Shown piece after piece: positions 10,747 to 57,824 of a stretch of DNA of 64,000 bases (the first letter of the stretch is position 1; every line of letters begins with the position of its first letter). The stretch is from contig PAQY01000003.1 in assembly GCA_002709955.1 (NCBI GenBank), forward strand, positions 1 through 64,000, written 5' to 3'. The notes under the pieces were generated by a model. The model saw nothing but the letters and a program-made list of their open reading frames with translations. It was not told where the DNA came from and ran no database searches. Both the position numbers and the translations under genes were made by a program. This stretch comes from Rhodospirillaceae bacterium. Its GTDB lineage: Bacteria; Pseudomonadota; Alphaproteobacteria; UBA8366; Aestuariispiraceae.

Positions 10747-10761
10747 AGCAAATTCGCTCCA

Positions 10762-11020
10762 GTGTGGTGCGCGGTTATTTGGGATCGACCAGGACGCTGT
10801 TTGCTGCGCTCCGGTTAGGAGCGTTTCGCGAAGCGATGCGGGGCATCGCAAGCGGAAGGCGCCGCGGCCCGGAGCGCCGCAAACAGCGCCTTTGGTCCCT
10901 TTATCGGCCCGTCGGACGGCGTCGAGAGCGCTGGACGATGAACCACATCGCCTGCCGCTCTCTTCTAGCCGACAGGCCGATAAAGAGATCCTGGTGATTC
11001 CAAATAATCGCGCACCACAC
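10762..11020. mobile_element. Inverted-repeat element (MITE-like), copy 1
   Basis: This 259-bp non-coding element is bounded by inverted repeats starting GTGTGGTGCGCGGTTATT (left) and ending in its complement (right, two mismatches). The arms extend to about 32 bases. Inside are further complementary segments (CTGTTTGC...CTCCGG with CCGGAGCG...AAACAG; CCCTTTATCGGCC with GGCCGATAAAG; GAGAGCG with CGCTCTC; CGATG with CATCG). The right side is flanked by TA in a CTAGG context and the left by CA. This fits TA-targeting IS630-type ends with one decayed duplication. The last base is part of the stop codon of the deacetylase gene. By eye it differs from copy 2 at 14 places. Confidence 0.85.
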
Positions 11021-11670
11021 TAGGCGCTGACCAGGTCTGCAAGGTCAGGTCGGGTGACGCCCTGATCAATCGGCAGATAGGTGGGATCGAAATCCTGTGT
11101 GACCTCTACGCCCTGATCCAAAAGGTGGTCATGGAACTGTGTTAGGGTTTCCACCATATCGCCAATGAATTTGTCATGCAGCACCAGCAACGGCCAATCC
11201 AGGGTCTCAAGATCCTGCTTGGCCCGGTCCAGCCAGTCGCGATGCGGGTCGATCCAATCCTTGGGAACACTGTTCCAGGTGACCATCGTGTATTTGTTCT
11301 CAACCAGATAATCCCGCGCATCGGGGCTTAGGATATGGGACCCCAGGGACCCGCTGCCATTCGGGCGAAAGAACTTTCTGGGATGTGCCATATCGCCCAG
11401 CAATTGCTCTGTTTCACCGATTTCACGCTCAACCCGCGCCCTGTCGCCATCGCGACCCAGCGGCGTTGTATGGGTCAATGTGTGATTGCCAATCCAATGG
11501 CCCTCCCGCCAGGCCCGTTCCGTCAGGCGTCGGGACTCGGGGTCCTGCAAGCGTTCCCCAACCACAAAAAAGGTCGCCTTGATCTCCCGCTCTGCAAGGA
11601 AATCCAGCACCCTTTCGGTTGTTCCCGGCCAGGGGCCATTGTCAAATGTATAGGTCAGGCGACGGGCCAT
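11020..11670 (-). CDS. Polysaccharide deacetylase-like (NodB fold) with D-to-N change
   Basis: This is a 216-residue, single-domain NodB-fold protein without a signal peptide. Motif 1 reads TFDNGP (residues 8-13) in place of the usual TFDDGP, so the metal-binding second Asp is Asn11. Motif 2 is HTLTH (63-67) with both metal His. RPNGSG corresponds to motif 3 and LHD near residue 165 to motif 5. It may act on a small amide rather than on a polymer, or be altered in metal use. GGGAG lies 8 bases before the ATG. It follows the GntR gene by 12 bases, and its stop codon is shared with the end of the repeat element. Confidence 0.75.
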   Translation of the reverse strand: MARRLTYTFDNGPWPGTTERVLDFLAEREIKATFFVVGERLQDPESRRLTERAWREGHWIGNHTLTHTTPLGRDGDRARVEREIGETEQLLGDMAHPRKFFRPNGSGSLGSHILSPDARDYLVENKYTMVTWNSVPKDWIDPHRDWLDRAKQDLETLDWPLLVLHDKFIGDMVETLTQFHDHLLDQGVEVTQDFDPTYLPIDQGVTRPDLADLVSA

Positions 11671-51591: not shown

Positions 51592-54123
51592 TCAGAAATT
51601 GGTGGAGACCGAGAGTTTCCCTGTCAGGGGCGCCCCTTGCGTCAGGTATCCACCCTGCACGGAAGCCCAGTAGGCATTGTTCGTCACGTTTTCGATATTC
51701 GCCCGGAACGTAACGTCCTGACCGTCAATGGTCTGGGTCGTGCGCGCGCCGATATCCAACCGCGACCACTCGGGAACCCGCTTTGTATTCGCCGTATCCT
51801 GATATTGCGTTCCGGTATAAATCATCCGGGCGCTTAGCGTGGTTGCACTGAGATAGGGAAGGTCCCATTCGACACCCATATTGGCCTGATATTGTGGCGC
51901 GCCGACTGCGAAATTGCCGTCATTGTTGCCACCCGCCGTTTTAGACAATTCGGCCTGGGTATAGGTCACGCCGCCTAGAAGATGGAGATCCGGGGTCAGG
52001 TCCCCAAAGGCTAACAGTTCGATACCACGGTTGCGCTGTTCCCCATCAATGCCAAAGACATTTGTGGTCGGATCGGTGATCCCGCTGGGCTGGCTGGTCT
52101 GAAACACGGCGGCAGACCCACCGATTGTTCCATAATCTAGCTTAACCCCAGCTTCATACTGCACAGAGACATAGGGGGGGAAGACTTCCCCCGTATTTGC
52201 CGCCGTGGTCGGTGCAGTTGGTCCCTGGGCCAAACCTTCAATTCTGTTGGCATAGAGAGAAATCTGTTCCGTCGGACGGATCACCAGACCGACAACTGGG
52301 GATAGTTTGGATTCATTATAGTTCGACGTTTCCCGAAGGCTGGCCCGGTTATACCCCTTAACCTTCACGGTCTGGTGGCGCGCACCCAGCGTGACCAGCA
52401 CTTGATCGTCGACAAAACCCAGCGTATCGGACAGGAAATAGCTATTCAGCCAGGATTCACTGACTTTTGGCAGGTCCTGCAAATCCCCACCGGTGGATGT
52501 CGCGTTGGGAATGGACACGCTGACTGGATTATAGATGTTCGTATTTTGATTTGACCCAAAAACGAAGGAGTTGCGATTGACCGTATGGAAAGCAGACATG
52601 CCCGCATTTATCTGATGTGTGACATCACCGGTTTCCGCCTGTGCACGCCCCCCAAACTGACCGCTTAAGGTCTGATCCTCACGCGGAACGTCCAATCGCC
52701 CGATTGTGGCATCCCCGGCAACATTCGTTACTGTTGGGCTGGCATAAATTCCGTCCTCTCGCATGAAGCGATAGCCAACCGCGCCATATAAGGTCAACGA
52801 GTCCAGCACATCATATTCACCCCGCATTTGGATGAACCGATCTTCCAGATTGGAAAAGGAGTAATCTGTCCCATAATTGGTGCTGGCATCTGGCGCATCA
52901 GGAATGACCGAAGAACTGACATTGACGACCGGGCGCCCCTTGTCGATCCGTTGCGATTGCAACAGCGTATCCAGGGTCAACCGCACCTTTTCACCGCGAT
53001 AATCCAAGGCCGCAGAGGCAAGGCGAGAGGTGCGTTCCTCGTCGTCAATCGCAGTTTCCCCGTCCCGAGAGGAGAGATTGACCCGTATGCCGAACGCATT
53101 GTCTGAACCGAACCGGCGACCGACATCTGCATGACCGCCAATTTCTGACGTCATCCCATATTTACCGGTCACGGACGTGATTGGTGTGTCTTCGGCACGC
53201 TTTGGCACCAGATTGATGGTACCACCCGTTCCGGTACTGCCCGGTGGGATACCGTTTACAAAGGCACTGGCCCCGCGAAACACTTCCACCCGTTCATAAG
53301 CATCGATATTGGCAATCTGCCGCGGTGTGGTCCCGTACAGCCCGTCCATCGACACATCTTCCATGGCCAATGGGAAACCACGCACCACAAAAAGTTCTGA
53401 AAAGTTACCAAATCCATACCCGCTTCGAACCGACGGATCATTCGCCATCACATCTGCAATCGATTCCGCCTGCTGATTGCGGATTGCCTGTTCTGTATAT
53501 CCTGTCGCGCTGAAAGGGGTGTCCATCATATCCTGGTTTCCCAGCACCCCGATCCGGGCACCCCGCGCCACCTGACCACCGGCATAGGGGCTGGGCAGGT
53601 TTTCAATGTCCGACAACGGGGATGCGCCGGTTCCTGCCACAGTGACAGGATCCAGCAGGATCGTTGATCCGGTCTGCTGTGCCCGCTTTTCGATGGCGAT
53701 GGTCGAACCATCCGCCATGCGATAGGTCAGGTCGCTGCCCGCCAGAAGGGTCGCAACGGCTTCGTCTGAGGTCATTTCGCCCGTAACGGCAGGGGATTGA
53801 AGACCCCGCACAAGCGCCCCATCCACCGTTACCTGAAGCCCGGATTGTTGCCCGAATATGGCCAGCGCACTGGCCAATGGCTGTGCCGGAATATCATAGA
53901 TCTGCACAGATCCATTTCCGGCCTGGGCCAGTTGCAATGGCGTCACGCCCCATAGCTGTGACTGTGGGGCAGAAAGTATCTGTTCTTGATTCCCCTGAAG
54001 CCGCGCTTCTTCTGCCGCCACGGGGCGGTTGCTCAGAACAGCGACCAGCGCTGTTGTCACCAGCAGGGCGCTGACTCTCAAGCGTCGACTGCCGCGAAGT
54101 GTGTTTGCAACGTTTATCGCCAT
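51592..54123 (-). CDS. TonB-dependent siderophore receptor with signalling domain
   Basis: This is an 843-residue outer-membrane receptor. The ATG at 54123 has CGGAGAG 5 bases before it; the ORF start at 54207 lacks a site. The order is signal peptide (ending about residue 37), then an STN domain (YDIPAQPLASALAIFGQQSGLQVTVD...), then a plug with VEVFRGASAFVNGIPPGSTGTGGTINLVPKRA, then a beta-barrel ending KLSVSTNF. The plug sequence fits the siderophore (FpvA/FhuE-like) group. It signals through the adjacent FecR and sigma factor. Confidence 0.93.
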   Translation of the reverse strand: MAINVANTLRGSRRLRVSALLVTTALVAVLSNRPVAAEEARLQGNQEQILSAPQSQLWGVTPLQLAQAGNGSVQIYDIPAQPLASALAIFGQQSGLQVTVDGALVRGLQSPAVTGEMTSDEAVATLLAGSDLTYRMADGSTIAIEKRAQQTGSTILLDPVTVAGTGASPLSDIENLPSPYAGGQVARGARIGVLGNQDMMDTPFSATGYTEQAIRNQQAESIADVMANDPSVRSGYGFGNFSELFVVRGFPLAMEDVSMDGLYGTTPRQIANIDAYERVEVFRGASAFVNGIPPGSTGTGGTINLVPKRAEDTPITSVTGKYGMTSEIGGHADVGRRFGSDNAFGIRVNLSSRDGETAIDDEERTSRLASAALDYRGEKVRLTLDTLLQSQRIDKGRPVVNVSSSVIPDAPDASTNYGTDYSFSNLEDRFIQMRGEYDVLDSLTLYGAVGYRFMREDGIYASPTVTNVAGDATIGRLDVPREDQTLSGQFGGRAQAETGDVTHQINAGMSAFHTVNRNSFVFGSNQNTNIYNPVSVSIPNATSTGGDLQDLPKVSESWLNSYFLSDTLGFVDDQVLVTLGARHQTVKVKGYNRASLRETSNYNESKLSPVVGLVIRPTEQISLYANRIEGLAQGPTAPTTAANTGEVFPPYVSVQYEAGVKLDYGTIGGSAAVFQTSQPSGITDPTTNVFGIDGEQRNRGIELLAFGDLTPDLHLLGGVTYTQAELSKTAGGNNDGNFAVGAPQYQANMGVEWDLPYLSATTLSARMIYTGTQYQDTANTKRVPEWSRLDIGARTTQTIDGQDVTFRANIENVTNNAYWASVQGGYLTQGAPLTGKLSVSTNF

Positions 54124-54294
54124 TGTATCTCTCCGGTCAAAATTCAGGATGGTAGAAACAGATCGATTTCGCATGGCGATGGCTGTGCGAATGCGTCTTA
54201 TTTCCAATATTCTCCTGCAGAGACGATGACCGAGAGCATCTTTCTAAAAAAAACTTTCAGAAAACGGGCAGAATATTGATTTTAATGGATTCTT

Positions 54295-55314
54295 TTATGT
54301 CTCTGATAAGATCAATATCCAGGGCGTAACGCGCCACAGCGTCAGGTTATGGGCCAAAGCGACGGCCCGAACTGCATTTTCTGGATCAGACAGGCTGTAA
54401 TACCCCGTGATCGGTCGATCCGCCATACTTGGATTGGCCAGGATTACCGCGCCGGGCAGGTAGTCCTGGAGTTGATCAAGGACTGCGCCCAATGGTTCAT
54501 CCTGAACAACCAGTCGGTTTTCCCGCCAGGCCGCGACCTGAGACGGGGATATTGTCCTCAGCGCCACTGCGCCTAATCGGTCAATCGACGCAGATTGTCC
54601 CGCGATCAATGTTTCTGAAACCATTCTGGTGGCTGAATGATAGTCGATCCGCACACTGCCTTCCCGGACGGCCACGGTATTGGCGTGATCATTCACGCGA
54701 ACCGCAAATTGGGTTCCGGTGACAGTCGTGACCAGATCACCGCTGAGCACACGAAACGGGCGGTGCGGATTTGTTTCAACGTCAAAATAAGCGCTGCCGG
54801 AAAGCAGATCGATCCGCCGTTCGTTTGGCGTAAAATCGATCGCAAGGGACGTTCCTGGTGCCATCGTGACCGTGCTGCCATCCTGCAATGTGATGGTGCG
54901 CGTTTCGGCTGTTCCGGTCATGTAATCTGATTGAAGCACTGTTGAGATGGTTGGCAGAAACACAAGCAACAGACAGGCCGCCACCGCCATCCCCGCCAAA
55001 GCCCCCCAGCCCCGGCGGACATGACTTTCGCGCCCGGCAGGCCGCGCAGACATTCCTGCTGTGGCAGTGATCGCAGGTTTAGCCAGTGTCCCCTGACGCC
55101 CCCAAACATTCTGAAATTCCGGGATGCTGTCGCGAATTAAACCGTCAACTTGTCCGGTTGCCTGCCAGGCCTGAAAATGAAGGGGAGAGGCATTCACCCA
55201 GGCCGCAAACTCTTTCTGCAAGTCAGGGTCATCTGGATCATCCTGCAACAGGATCAACCAGTTTGTCGCCTCCCGCGACGCGGTTTCCAGTGCTTGGGTC
55301 GGGTCGTCGGTCAT
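54295..55314 (-). CDS. FecR-type anti-sigma/signal protein (second module)
   Basis: This is a 339-residue protein. The ATG at 55314 is preferred because the ORF start at 55326 is a TTG that forms part of the GAGGAA ribosome-binding site. It has an N-terminal DUF4880-like segment (NWLILLQDDPDDPDLQKEFAAWVNASPLHFQAW), a membrane helix at about 105-125 and a FecR domain (GTAETRTITLQDGSTVTMAPGTSLAIDF..., GTQFAVRVNDHANTVAVREGSVRI). Confidence 0.92.
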   Translation of the reverse strand: MTDDPTQALETASREATNWLILLQDDPDDPDLQKEFAAWVNASPLHFQAWQATGQVDGLIRDSIPEFQNVWGRQGTLAKPAITATAGMSARPAGRESHVRRGWGALAGMAVAACLLLVFLPTISTVLQSDYMTGTAETRTITLQDGSTVTMAPGTSLAIDFTPNERRIDLLSGSAYFDVETNPHRPFRVLSGDLVTTVTGTQFAVRVNDHANTVAVREGSVRIDYHSATRMVSETLIAGQSASIDRLGAVALRTISPSQVAAWRENRLVVQDEPLGAVLDQLQDYLPGAVILANPSMADRPITGYYSLSDPENAVRAVALAHNLTLWRVTPWILILSET

Positions 55315-55440
55315 GCTGTTCCTCAAACTGCGGTATTGGACGGAAGCCGGGCGAATGCCGACCCTGTGATAAAAGAAGCCGTCTATTAATAATGGACGGT
55401 TATCGAGCGGTGTTTTCTAGAAAATAATCGAGTTACAGGA

Positions 55441-56004
55441 TCAAGGCCACCCCAAGCGTCGCTTGCAATGGTCTACACCTTCCGCAACCAGAATATGAGC
55501 CATTGGCAAGGATATGTTCAATGTGGCCGCAATCTCGCGCAGTTTGTATCCACCGATCCTGTGCATTTCCAGCGCAATGCGGGTGCGCTGGGGCAATTCC
55601 GCCATCGCATCCTGAACCTGCGAAAGCTGGTCCCGATACAGGGCAATAGTCTCTGGCGTCGCGGTCGACGGTGCGTCGTGCACCCCGTGTATATCGTCTT
55701 TTTGGTTCAACAGGGTCCGCTGTTCCCGCGCGGTTTTGCGATGACCATCAATCGCCAGATTGCGCACGATGCGATACAGATAGTTTCGGGGTTCATCCAG
55801 TCGCCGCCGGTCTGTCGCCTGGGACAGGCGCATCCAGGCTTCCTGTACCAGATCTTCCGCATTGGCGCGATTGCCCGTTAATCCAGACGCATAATCGACC
55901 AATGCCGCCCTATGCGTCAGAAAAAGGTCCTGAATGTTGGCATTCTGTCGCAATCTTTGCGATCCTTTATCGATCCTGAATCCGACAGACAGCCTGTGAC
56001 CCAA
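55441..56004 (-). CDS. ECF sigma factor (FecI-like, second module)
   Basis: This is an up-to-187-residue sigma factor. Region 2 includes NRANAEDLVQEAWMRLSQA and region 4 includes ELPQRTRIALEMHRIGGYKLREIAATLNISLPMAHILVAEG. There is no ATG before the conserved part. The start is either TTG at 56004 or, more likely, TTG at 55953 with AAAGGA 9 bases before it. A good Fur-box match lies upstream at 56034-56052. Confidence 0.88.
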   Translation of the reverse strand: MGHRLSVGFRIDKGSQRLRQNANIQDLFLTHRAALVDYASGLTGNRANAEDLVQEAWMRLSQATDRRRLDEPRNYLYRIVRNLAIDGHRKTAREQRTLLNQKDDIHGVHDAPSTATPETIALYRDQLSQVQDAMAELPQRTRIALEMHRIGGYKLREIAATLNISLPMAHILVAEGVDHCKRRLGWP

Positions 56005-56052: not shown

Positions 56053-56209
56053 AAATTAACCTTGTAACGATACATATCCCGCATTGCAACAGCCGTATAT
56101 CCAGGGATTGCAATCGGTACCGTATCCAGCGATAGACCATTGGGATTCCGCACGGCACAACGATATCGGTCGTGCCGGGCGGAAGCTTCCAATTTAGGAC
56201 CGTGTCTTA

Positions 56210-56469
56210 GTGTGGTGCGCGGTTATTTGGGATCGATCAGGACGCTGTTTGCTGCGCTCCGGTTAGGAGCGTTTCGCGAAGCGATGCGGGGCATCGCAAG
56301 CGGAAGGCGACGCGGCCCGGAGCGCCGCAAACAGCGCCTTTGGTCCCTTTATCGGCCTGTCGGACAGCGTCGAGGGTGCTTGACGATGAACCACATCGCC
56401 TGCGCGCCCTCTCCTAGCCGACAGGCCGATAAAGGGATCCTGATGATCCCAAATAACCGCGCACCACAC
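56210..56469. mobile_element. Inverted-repeat element (MITE-like), copy 2
   Basis: This 260-bp element has perfect 25-bp terminal repeats (GTGTGGTGCGCGGTTATT...), extending to about 32 bases with one gap. It is flanked by TA on both sides (56208-56209 and 56470-56471), as for TA-duplicating IS630-type insertions. The internal paired segments are as in copy 1 at 10762-11020, with which it differs at 13 substitutions and one indel by eye. Its right end supplies the last base of the amidohydrolase stop codon. Confidence 0.88.
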
Positions 56470-57824
56470 TAGGCTGAAAGCAACATCCCCTGGGCCTGAT
56501 TGTTGGGCGCGCGATGAAACTTTCCATCCTGCATGATCGCAACAATCCGCTTCTTGTCCTGCAATATGCGAACATCCCGCAACGGGTCGCCATCGACCAA
56601 CAGCATGTCAGCCAGATAGCCTTCCTTGATCTGACCCAACTCGTGGCCCATGCCCATGATTTGCCCGCCCAGTTGGGTGGCAGACTGAATTGCTTCCATC
56701 GGGGTCATGCCGATCAGATCGACAAAATATTCAATATCCTTGGCATTGGTGCCATGCGGTGTCCAGGCAAAGCCATAATCACCACCGATCAGCACACGAA
56801 TACCCCGCTTGCGCATTTTCTGCATGGACTCGACGGCATGTTCCAATTCACGCTCATAGGCATCGGTAATCGGTGTACCGGGTTTAATGCCATACTCACC
56901 TGCATTGCGGGCTGTATTCAGCAACCAGGCCAGGCCCGGTGCGACGAAATGCTTGTCCTTGTTCGCCTCCAACATATCCAGTGCTTCTTCATCGGTGAAC
57001 GAGGCGTGATAGATATTATGAATGCCGAATTGGACGCATTTCTTGATCGATTCCTTGGACCTGGCATGGGCGGCAAGGCGGCGTCCCCGGCTGCGGGCCT
57101 CGTCACAAGCGACCTTGATTTCATCATCGGTGAACTGATTTTCTTCAGCCCCCATGCCCGTAATCTCTTCCCCCGACAGGTTCAGCTTGATCGTATCAAC
57201 GCCCCATTTCATCAAAATCCGAACATTGCGGCGCATGTCTTCAACGCCCGATACCACAATGCCCAGGTTAAGGCCTTCATGATCAATATGCGGCAGGGAT
57301 GCATCCCCCAGGCCCCCGACAGAAGTAAGCTCCGGCCCGGCGGCGGTATAGCGTGGGCCCGGCACCTTGCCGGACCGAATGGCGTCACGGATTACGACAT
57401 CCAAACGTGGCTTAGCTGCCGCCGCCCCGCAGCCAGCGGTGAAGCCTGCATCGAGCACGATTTTGGACATATAGACGCAATTGAGCATATGCTCTTCAAT
57501 CGGCATCATCTGAATGGGATTGATCCCCGGCGCATTGTTCCAGCTTAGATGCAGATGCGCGTCAATCAGCCCCGGCATCAGGGTCATGCCCCGCCCATCA
57601 ATCCGGGTGCTGCCCGTGGTCGACCAACTGTTCAGGCTGCCACCAAAGCCACTGCCCGTCCGGGTGATGGATTTGATCCGATTGCCCGATACCGTAACCT
57701 CCCCAGAAAAGGGTGGCTCACCCGATCCATTCAGGACCTGTACATTGCTAAAGACGATATCGGATGGACCCGCAGCAGCATCGCCACCCTTGCCGCCCCA
57801 GCCACTGAACCGGTTCTCTGCCAT
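56469..57824 (-). CDS. Amidohydrolase-family metal enzyme
   Basis: This is a 451-residue TIM-barrel amidohydrolase. H-x-H in DAHLHLSWN (about 89-97) supplies the first metal ligands. Later candidates are VDTIKLNLSG, HARSKE, IHNIYHASF and IGGDYGF. It belongs with the imidazolonepropionase/prolidase-like group that cleaves cyclic amides or dipeptides. Its stop codon TAG is completed by the inverted-repeat element. It is the last gene of the minus-strand operon. Confidence 0.87.
   Translation of the reverse strand: MAENRFSGWGGKGGDAAAGPSDIVFSNVQVLNGSGEPPFSGEVTVSGNRIKSITRTGSGFGGSLNSWSTTGSTRIDGRGMTLMPGLIDAHLHLSWNNAPGINPIQMMPIEEHMLNCVYMSKIVLDAGFTAGCGAAAAKPRLDVVIRDAIRSGKVPGPRYTAAGPELTSVGGLGDASLPHIDHEGLNLGIVVSGVEDMRRNVRILMKWGVDTIKLNLSGEEITGMGAEENQFTDDEIKVACDEARSRGRRLAAHARSKESIKKCVQFGIHNIYHASFTDEEALDMLEANKDKHFVAPGLAWLLNTARNAGEYGIKPGTPITDAYERELEHAVESMQKMRKRGIRVLIGGDYGFAWTPHGTNAKDIEYFVDLIGMTPMEAIQSATQLGGQIMGMGHELGQIKEGYLADMLLVDGDPLRDVRILQDKKRIVAIMQDGKFHRAPNNQAQGMLLSA

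Follow-up and report, generated by a model that had tools for sequence, protein, structure and literature searches.

With two copies in the window, the whole 64-kb stretch of DNA analysed here, the repeat element described below is best explained overall as a non-autonomous, MITE-like transposon that inserts at TA dinucleotides and carries as its cargo two conserved arms in inverted orientation, perhaps acting as RNA at the 3' ends of genes, an account to which we give an even chance. The preliminary description had located both copies correctly, and their boundaries are exact, GTGTGG...CCACAC standing between TA dinucleotides (Table 1); the alignment likewise has 14 differing columns, the number of differences first counted by eye. 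Several features of a MITE are present, namely terminal inverted repeats, a TA target-site duplication and the lack of a conserved protein. As to the last of these, inspection revealed frames of 102, 106 and 110 aa crossing the copies and a 1-base indel between them, and homologues in another genome (G005) show a 2-base loop insertion, which also counts against a conserved protein. Directly upstream of copy 2 (window positions 51592-56004) is a set of TonB-receptor-like, FecR-like and ECF-sigma-like genes, named from their translations by eye.

Table 1. Position of the two element copies in the window, with their parts and the genes that they touch
Feature	Position	Strand	Remark
Copy 1, left target-site duplication	10760..10761	.	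decayed to CA
Copy 1 of the element, 259 bp	10762..11020	+	same site occupied in same-genus genome G009
Copy 1, left terminal repeat = outer stem	10762..10793	+	
Copy 1, arm A, motif-sense on + strand	10795..10888	+	match to model R1
Copy 1, arm A, conserved internal-loop motif TTAGGAG	10815..10821	+	
Copy 1, arm A, conserved tip GCGATGCGGGGCATCGC	10833..10849	+	
Copy 1, arm B, inverted relative of arm A	10894..10989	- (motif-sense)	R2 match on +, R1 match on -
Copy 1, right terminal repeat	10990..11020	+	
Copy 1, right TA	11021..11022	.	with the element's last base forms TAG stop 11020-11022 (- strand)
216-aa gene ended by copy 1's TAG	11020-11670	-	polysaccharide-deacetylase-like, named by eye
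Copy 2, left TA duplication	56208..56209	.	
Copy 2 of the element, 260 bp	56210..56469	+	same site empty in G009
Copy 2, left terminal repeat	56210..56241	+	
Copy 2, arm A	56243..56336	+	
Copy 2, arm B, inverted	56342..56438	-	
Copy 2, right terminal repeat	56439..56469	+	
Copy 2, right TA duplication	56470..56471	.	with the element's last base forms TAG stop 56469-56471 (- strand)
451-aa gene ended by copy 2's TAG	56469-57824	-	amidohydrolase-like, named by eye

BLAST analyses of the genome from which the window was taken (G000) revealed 43 matching pieces, comprising 11 full-length copies, one of which carries an inverted inner arm, five copies at contig ends, and deletion or rearranged derivatives for the rest. 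The inverted ends match at 19-22 of 22 bases in each of the 11 full copies and, with boundaries taken from BLAST without any bonus for TA flanks, TA occurs on both sides of 8/11 and on one side of 3/11. In a genome of the same genus (G009), five copies are full, one of them having an arm inverted, and nine lie at contig ends. There, the site of copy 2 is an uninterrupted sequence with a single TA, recovered as two abutting matches whose joined flanks show a one-base gap just before the site, and the 451-aa gene ends with TAA. In the window, this gene ends with a TAG made of the duplicated TA and the terminal base of the element, and the end of the protein is thus unchanged. The site of copy 1 is also occupied in G009, where contig C70 ends inside the element; since this copy is common to both genomes and its left TA has decayed, it is the older insertion. 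These observations leave next to no doubt that the element is a mobile, TA-inserting DNA transposon. The earlier view that it was not just a dead transposon remnant was right in that the element is not dead, copy 2 being absent from the congener site, but a transposon it still is. Six one-armed derivatives with good ends (L119, L145, L146, L148, L217 and L224), three of them of one design in a single genome (L145, L146 and L148 in G007), suggest that the element can move without having both arms, in which case the kept fold needs another reason.

A scan for element ends and TA-flanked inverted repeats at 18 loci with IS630 DDE_3 (PF13358) and 18 loci with DUF4096 (PF13340, IS5/IS427-type) from 14 mostly incomplete genomes revealed no transposase between matching ends. 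These represent 18 of the 20 and 18 of the 19 places listed for each family, the others overlapping scanned loci or being weak (L362). The only paired end match (L324) results from a copy of the element next to a fragment of an IS630. As neither of the two families scanned provided a transposase with matching ends, the element is filed as MITE-like only. Its TA target is a feature of the IS630/Tc1-mariner group, and its ends are not common with those of the resident IS630: the IS630 end of the window's genome, GAGCATGATGATATTAGACGG, is unlike the ends of the window's element and resembles the element ends of G007, GAGCATGATGATATC, which belongs to another genus. An IS630-type element with transposase matches in two overlapping frames (L060, G000:C7:17953-18385 plus flanks) has an end, GAGCATGATGATAT, that is identical to the tip of the element ends in that genus. 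A transposase supplied in trans would move the element by its ends, which would do the moving while the arms ride as cargo.

The multi-branched fold that had been proposed for the element was recovered as a predicted Y, composed of an outer terminal-repeat stem and two hairpin arms, and lies far beyond chance. The MFE is -172.7 kcal/mol for copy 1 and -185.8 kcal/mol for copy 2 (z of -14.1 and -16.4; 0/200 shuffles as good), and single element copies have fold z values from -12.8 to -16.4. Both paired changes first noticed between the two copies are real, one in the outer arm (C-G to T-A at alignment columns 36/267) and one in an inner arm (A-T to G-C at columns 199/232). These two compensated pairs represent four of the 14 differing columns; four others are one-sided changes within pairs (C-G to a T.G wobble at column 201, a C.A mismatch in copy 1 that is C-G in copy 2 at column 259, and G.T to G-C at columns 273 and 282), and the remaining six fall outside predicted pairs. 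Further copies were found and aligned, and an excess of paired changes is present among them. G000 and G009 together have 16 full copies; once the two that carry an inverted arm are set aside, the other 14 show nine double-changed cells, all still paired. Independence would predict 3.6 (0.0015 for doubles and none for paired doubles in 2000 permutations). The nine cells fall in only five pairs, three in the outer stem and two in the inner arms (44/147 and 199/232), and may in part share one event. Because terminal repeats must match for any transposase, covariation in the outer arm proves little, and the case rests on the two inner arms.

Both arms have CTAGGAG on one side of an internal loop and CGACG on the opposite side, a tip GCGATG...CATCGC that is kept in sequence, and covarying stems between them, the overall motif being CTAGGAG...GCGATGCGGGGCATCGC...CGACG. 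The covariance model built for arm A (R1) also matches arm B on the opposite strand and, given the motifs in common, the element is an inverted pair of one hairpin, since diverged. Each arm spans 94-97 model positions and includes several stems as well as internal loops. Matches to R1 were found in 20/43 genomes of the order and 31/385 of a class sample (the window's genome counted in each), as well as in 7/398 genomes of a phylum sample whose share outside the class is not given, these seven including the window's genome and all belonging to the same class.

In an alignment of 35 diverged elements chosen from the genus and family (MAFFT, not fitted to structure; 7/60 loci with fewer than 18/22 matching end bases were left out), 63/91 predicted pairs have double changes that keep pairing. 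The covariation score, for a structure derived from the same alignment, was 0.511 versus 0.079-0.102 for slid versions, and all five measures were above those of shuffles and slid versions, with 1/500 shuffles reaching the pair-type count. The class-wide alignments took the best 150 of 220 and the best 150 of 228 arm matches at 100 chosen loci. Among 150 such arms, 94.4% of cells are paired versus 63.6% when shuffled and 35.2-45.7% when slid, figures that are favoured by the fitting of the alignment to structure; 32/34 pairs have double changes, and many flip between G-C and C-G. Element size is also kept, 82/96 class-wide elements measuring 250-275 bp. TA is found on both sides in 80/96, a count biased upward by the choice of boundaries with a bonus for TA flanks. 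For this set, 12/108 loci with no detectable terminal repeat, several at contig ends, were left out, and some boundaries are wrong (e.g. L226 and L148). The selection for a fold that was suggested from two copies is thus supported by their homologues, and we are confident, short of certainty, that arm folding is maintained by selection. The arms have retained this folding in numerous alphaproteobacterial genera despite extensive sequence change.

Complementarity might also be kept by template switching or gene conversion between palindrome halves, with no selection on the fold and the element being a selfish MITE. Many of the G-C/C-G flips seen across the class would each be possible by one template switch in one event, distinct double changes in related arms (144 Watson-Crick, 3 G.T and 8 unpaired) outnumber the 82 single ones, and single arms have been inverted in place in L013 and L104/L087, all of which agree with such self-correction. 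However, the internal loops (TAGGA opposite CGACG) are non-complementary and conserved beside well paired stems in both arms, when homogenisation should have paired them. Moreover, the 14 close copies display mostly one-sided changes, 59 in number (31 pair-breaking, 12 to G.T, and 16 from G.T or another consensus pair to Watson-Crick), versus nine doubled cells, and the mismatch asymmetry described next occurs in arm A, not in the outer stem. Self-correction without fold selection is therefore considered unlikely.

Selection on a duplex or cruciform is blind to the difference between G.T and A.C, whereas selection on a single strand is not, and the mismatch asymmetry can thus be used as a test. 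On the motif strand, the model-based count gave 201 G.T versus 29 A.C in the first arm per locus and 93 versus 28 in the second, while the antisense model reverses the asymmetry (90 versus 112 and 62 versus 107, 108 of these G.T cells lying in one junction pair). Because the covariance model itself prefers G.U, the count was repeated with strand-symmetric helix finding, and the asymmetry is larger in the model-based counts. The strand-symmetric procedure gave 81 G.T versus 30 A.C in arm A (genomes 21 to 3), a weak 55 versus 35 on the motif strand of arm B (genomes 15 to 11), and 121 versus 48 in motif-defined arms (139 arms in 133 elements; genomes 17 versus 4 of 25). The outer stem, taken as a control, gave 73 versus 53 (genomes 13 to 12). 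With an unrestricted walk that includes the internal loops, the asymmetry is nearly gone (389 versus 323 and 348 versus 312 on the element's + strand). It is possible that strand-biased C-to-T deamination of the exposed strand makes the asymmetry without selection; substitutions in groups of related arms number 34 C>T versus 11 G>A, and 7 A>G versus 2 T>C, the latter being too few. Overall, what has been kept is probably a folded single strand, either RNA or ssDNA, rather than a duplex or cruciform. Where selection for a folded RNA or cruciform had been proposed, selection on a fold is supported, and the asymmetry of the inner arms favours a folded single strand over the cruciform.

Arms serving as DNA, whether as a cruciform or as a duplex bound by a protein of the host or of transposition, would be consistent with the occurrence of the motif once on each strand and with the tip stem GCGATG/CATCGC, which is kept in sequence and not for pairing alone. 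Long palindromes can extrude. Yet a role at the duplex level predicts no preference for G.T over A.C by strand, and one-armed copies seem to have moved too, which makes it very improbable that the arms act in this form.

The motif strand could also fold as ssDNA at the replication fork and be the target of an enzyme, much as has been proposed for REP hairpins and RAYT transposases, the inverted pair keeping one motif strand always on the lagging-strand template. The arms form an inverted pair like REP dimers, and the strand asymmetry fits ssDNA too. HUH transposition proceeds without TA duplication and paired terminal repeats, unlike the insertion of this element, which leaves both. Furthermore, no Y1_Tnp (PF01797) match was found in 6/14 genomes searched, including the window's and the one-contig G010, all of which carry elements, while 8/14 have a match. 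The antisense-strand CGTC beside the hairpin, as in the CGTC REPs of alphaproteobacteria (PMC3733652), speaks for the ssDNA reading, to which we attach a low probability. A REP/BIME mobilised by RAYT was rejected as an identity for the element, the window's genome having no PF01797 match.

RNA at gene 3' ends is the job that we tentatively assign to the kept fold, at slightly less than an even chance, from the way in which the elements contact genes. Counting open frames rather than verified genes, and related copies apart, a frame of at least 100 codons runs into the element at 92/176 testable flank sides. The junction codon is in frame at 53 of them, while the other two frames account for 25 and 14. 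Of those 53, 51 have TA at the junction, as part of TAG (48), TAA (2) or TAT (1). With 2005 TA dinucleotides in the window, stop codons are a small part of possible targets, and we infer that the contact with stop codons results from the survival of harmless insertions, not from targeting. The element base G that follows the duplicated TA would restore a TAG stop, and insertion at a gene end would spare the protein. Gene arrangement around the elements, deduced from an open-frame heuristic (n=31), was tandem in 15, convergent in 10 and divergent in 6, with no clear signal; at divergent sites, no gene runs into the element. Owing to the inversion of the arms, any transcript that enters the element, whichever side it comes from, encounters a motif-sense hairpin before the other one, about 33 nt past the junction. 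Considered with how often the elements touch stop codons, this suggests RNA at transcript 3' ends. The fold would most likely have been kept for a job done by single-stranded RNA where the upstream transcript has its 3' end, namely end formation, processing or protection. No T run was found after either arm, which makes a classical intrinsic terminator unlikely. Alternatively, the internal loop (CTAGGAG/CGACG) and the tip (GCGATG...CATCGC) may bind a host protein. Such RNA jobs would make insertions harmless or useful.

One arm model matches elements whose terminal repeats are of three or more seemingly unrelated kinds. Among 16 elements picked from 10 genomes, the 12 that were not used to build R1 each have an arm scoring at least 56.7 bits (E of at most 4.7e-11). 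Different ends coexist in five genomes, and six same-genome pairs agree at 2-7/24 end bases. Single linkage of 128 elements (five of 133 were left out as mis-bounded) produced 11 end clusters, five of which have at least three members. Since two of these five look alike and the largest cluster is a chain of gradually diverging sequences, the number of unrelated kinds of ends is put at no fewer than three, and part of the diversity is ordinary divergence. Arm percent identity was rejected as proof that the core outlives the ends, with 63-87% over 120 pairs versus a shuffled mean of 61% and maximum of 67% at the same gap costs. A further step, which is doubtful but conceivable, is that the twin-hairpin core is a structured RNA passenger. 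Transposon ends of several unrelated kinds would have carried it through much of the class and would deliver it to gene 3' ends, where transcripts coming from the one side or the other would always run into a sense hairpin first. If so, the core would amount to an RNA device that is mobile and independent of direction, unlike those MITEs that are merely worn-down insertion sequences. The folds of bacterial MITEs may be either selected devices or a side effect of palindromic ends. Here, arms keep pairing while ends turn over, some genomes have many copies, and sister species offer both occupied and empty sites, so that the question of a selected device becomes directly testable by transcript comparison.

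RIME and Sm repeats are intergenic palindromic mosaic elements of alphaproteobacteria. The present element is also intergenic, palindromic, mosaic and alphaproteobacterial, a likeness of description and not of compared sequences. Both are repeats of Sinorhizobium, named in PMC2245857. Correia/NEMIS, ERIC and RUP are described as MITEs with TA ends and folding transcripts (PMC2229807, PMC3733652). The present element resembles these in being short, TA-flanked, multi-copy and near genes, with inverted ends and a strong fold. It differs from them by its size of ca. 260 bp, its three helices, a cargo that is an inverted pair of conserved hairpins, the occurrence of the arm motif under several kinds of ends, and the lack of a matching IS among those scanned. 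In its way of working, it is like a MITE of the NEMIS/ERIC type (PMC2229807, PMC10969869, PMC3733652). The CIR repeats of Caulobacter and Brucella are likewise alphaproteobacterial and intergenic, with two arms, a linker and TA at the ends, and differ by their size of ca. 110 bp, the absence of terminal repeats and a GANTC methylation site in a terminal loop (PMC2229807). GANTC, required in the arm loop of a CIR, occurs anywhere in the arms of 7/133 elements and in the terminal 32 bp of 49/133, and this identity was rejected. The CGTC REPs resemble the element by the CGTC beside a hairpin, their inverted dimers, the lack of a known transposase and a frequent location downstream of genes, and differ by their size of 20-40 bp, stems of 8-9 bp, loops of 4-5 and a CCA tail (Di Nocera 2013, PMC3733652). 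With arms of ca. 95 nt in several stems and internal loops, inside a TA-inserting element, the present structure is unlike a CGTC REP and was not classified as one. Membership of an Rfam 15 family was also rejected, the window having 0 matches at the gathering score and 12 homologous loci a single family, suhB, which lies some 1 kb away from the element; the four sub-threshold matches in five loci were all to eukaryotic RNAs. Among the papers listed by searches of open-licence literature, none describes the element in its title or abstract start, and an earlier description under another name is possible.

Several rearranged loci were encountered. One arm is inverted in place in L013 (arm B, G000:C22:153243-153502) and in L104/L087 (arm A, G009:C51:29678-29937), presumably by recombination between the stem halves of the arm itself. 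In L004 and L014, the element has to its immediate left, in the reading direction of the locus, another such end, truncated and in back-to-back orientation; it looks as though an older element had offered its TA (GA in L014) as the target of a younger one. Two element-like ends at G000:C4:101389-101423, in direct repeat, 22 bp apart and without arms, possibly belong to another element sharing the tip. L091 (PAKU01000002.1, from a MAG labelled Polycyclovorans sp. SAT60) reads, where compared by eye, almost exactly like the G000:C16:68737 region of the window's genome, and its gammaproteobacterial label looks like mis-binning. Finally, six elements were compared with 72,556 plasmid records by blastn, with no match for the window element or three others; L273 had one match, in Terrarubrum flagellatum, and L218 one weak match, in Sinorhizobium fredii GR64, which was confirmed as an arm.
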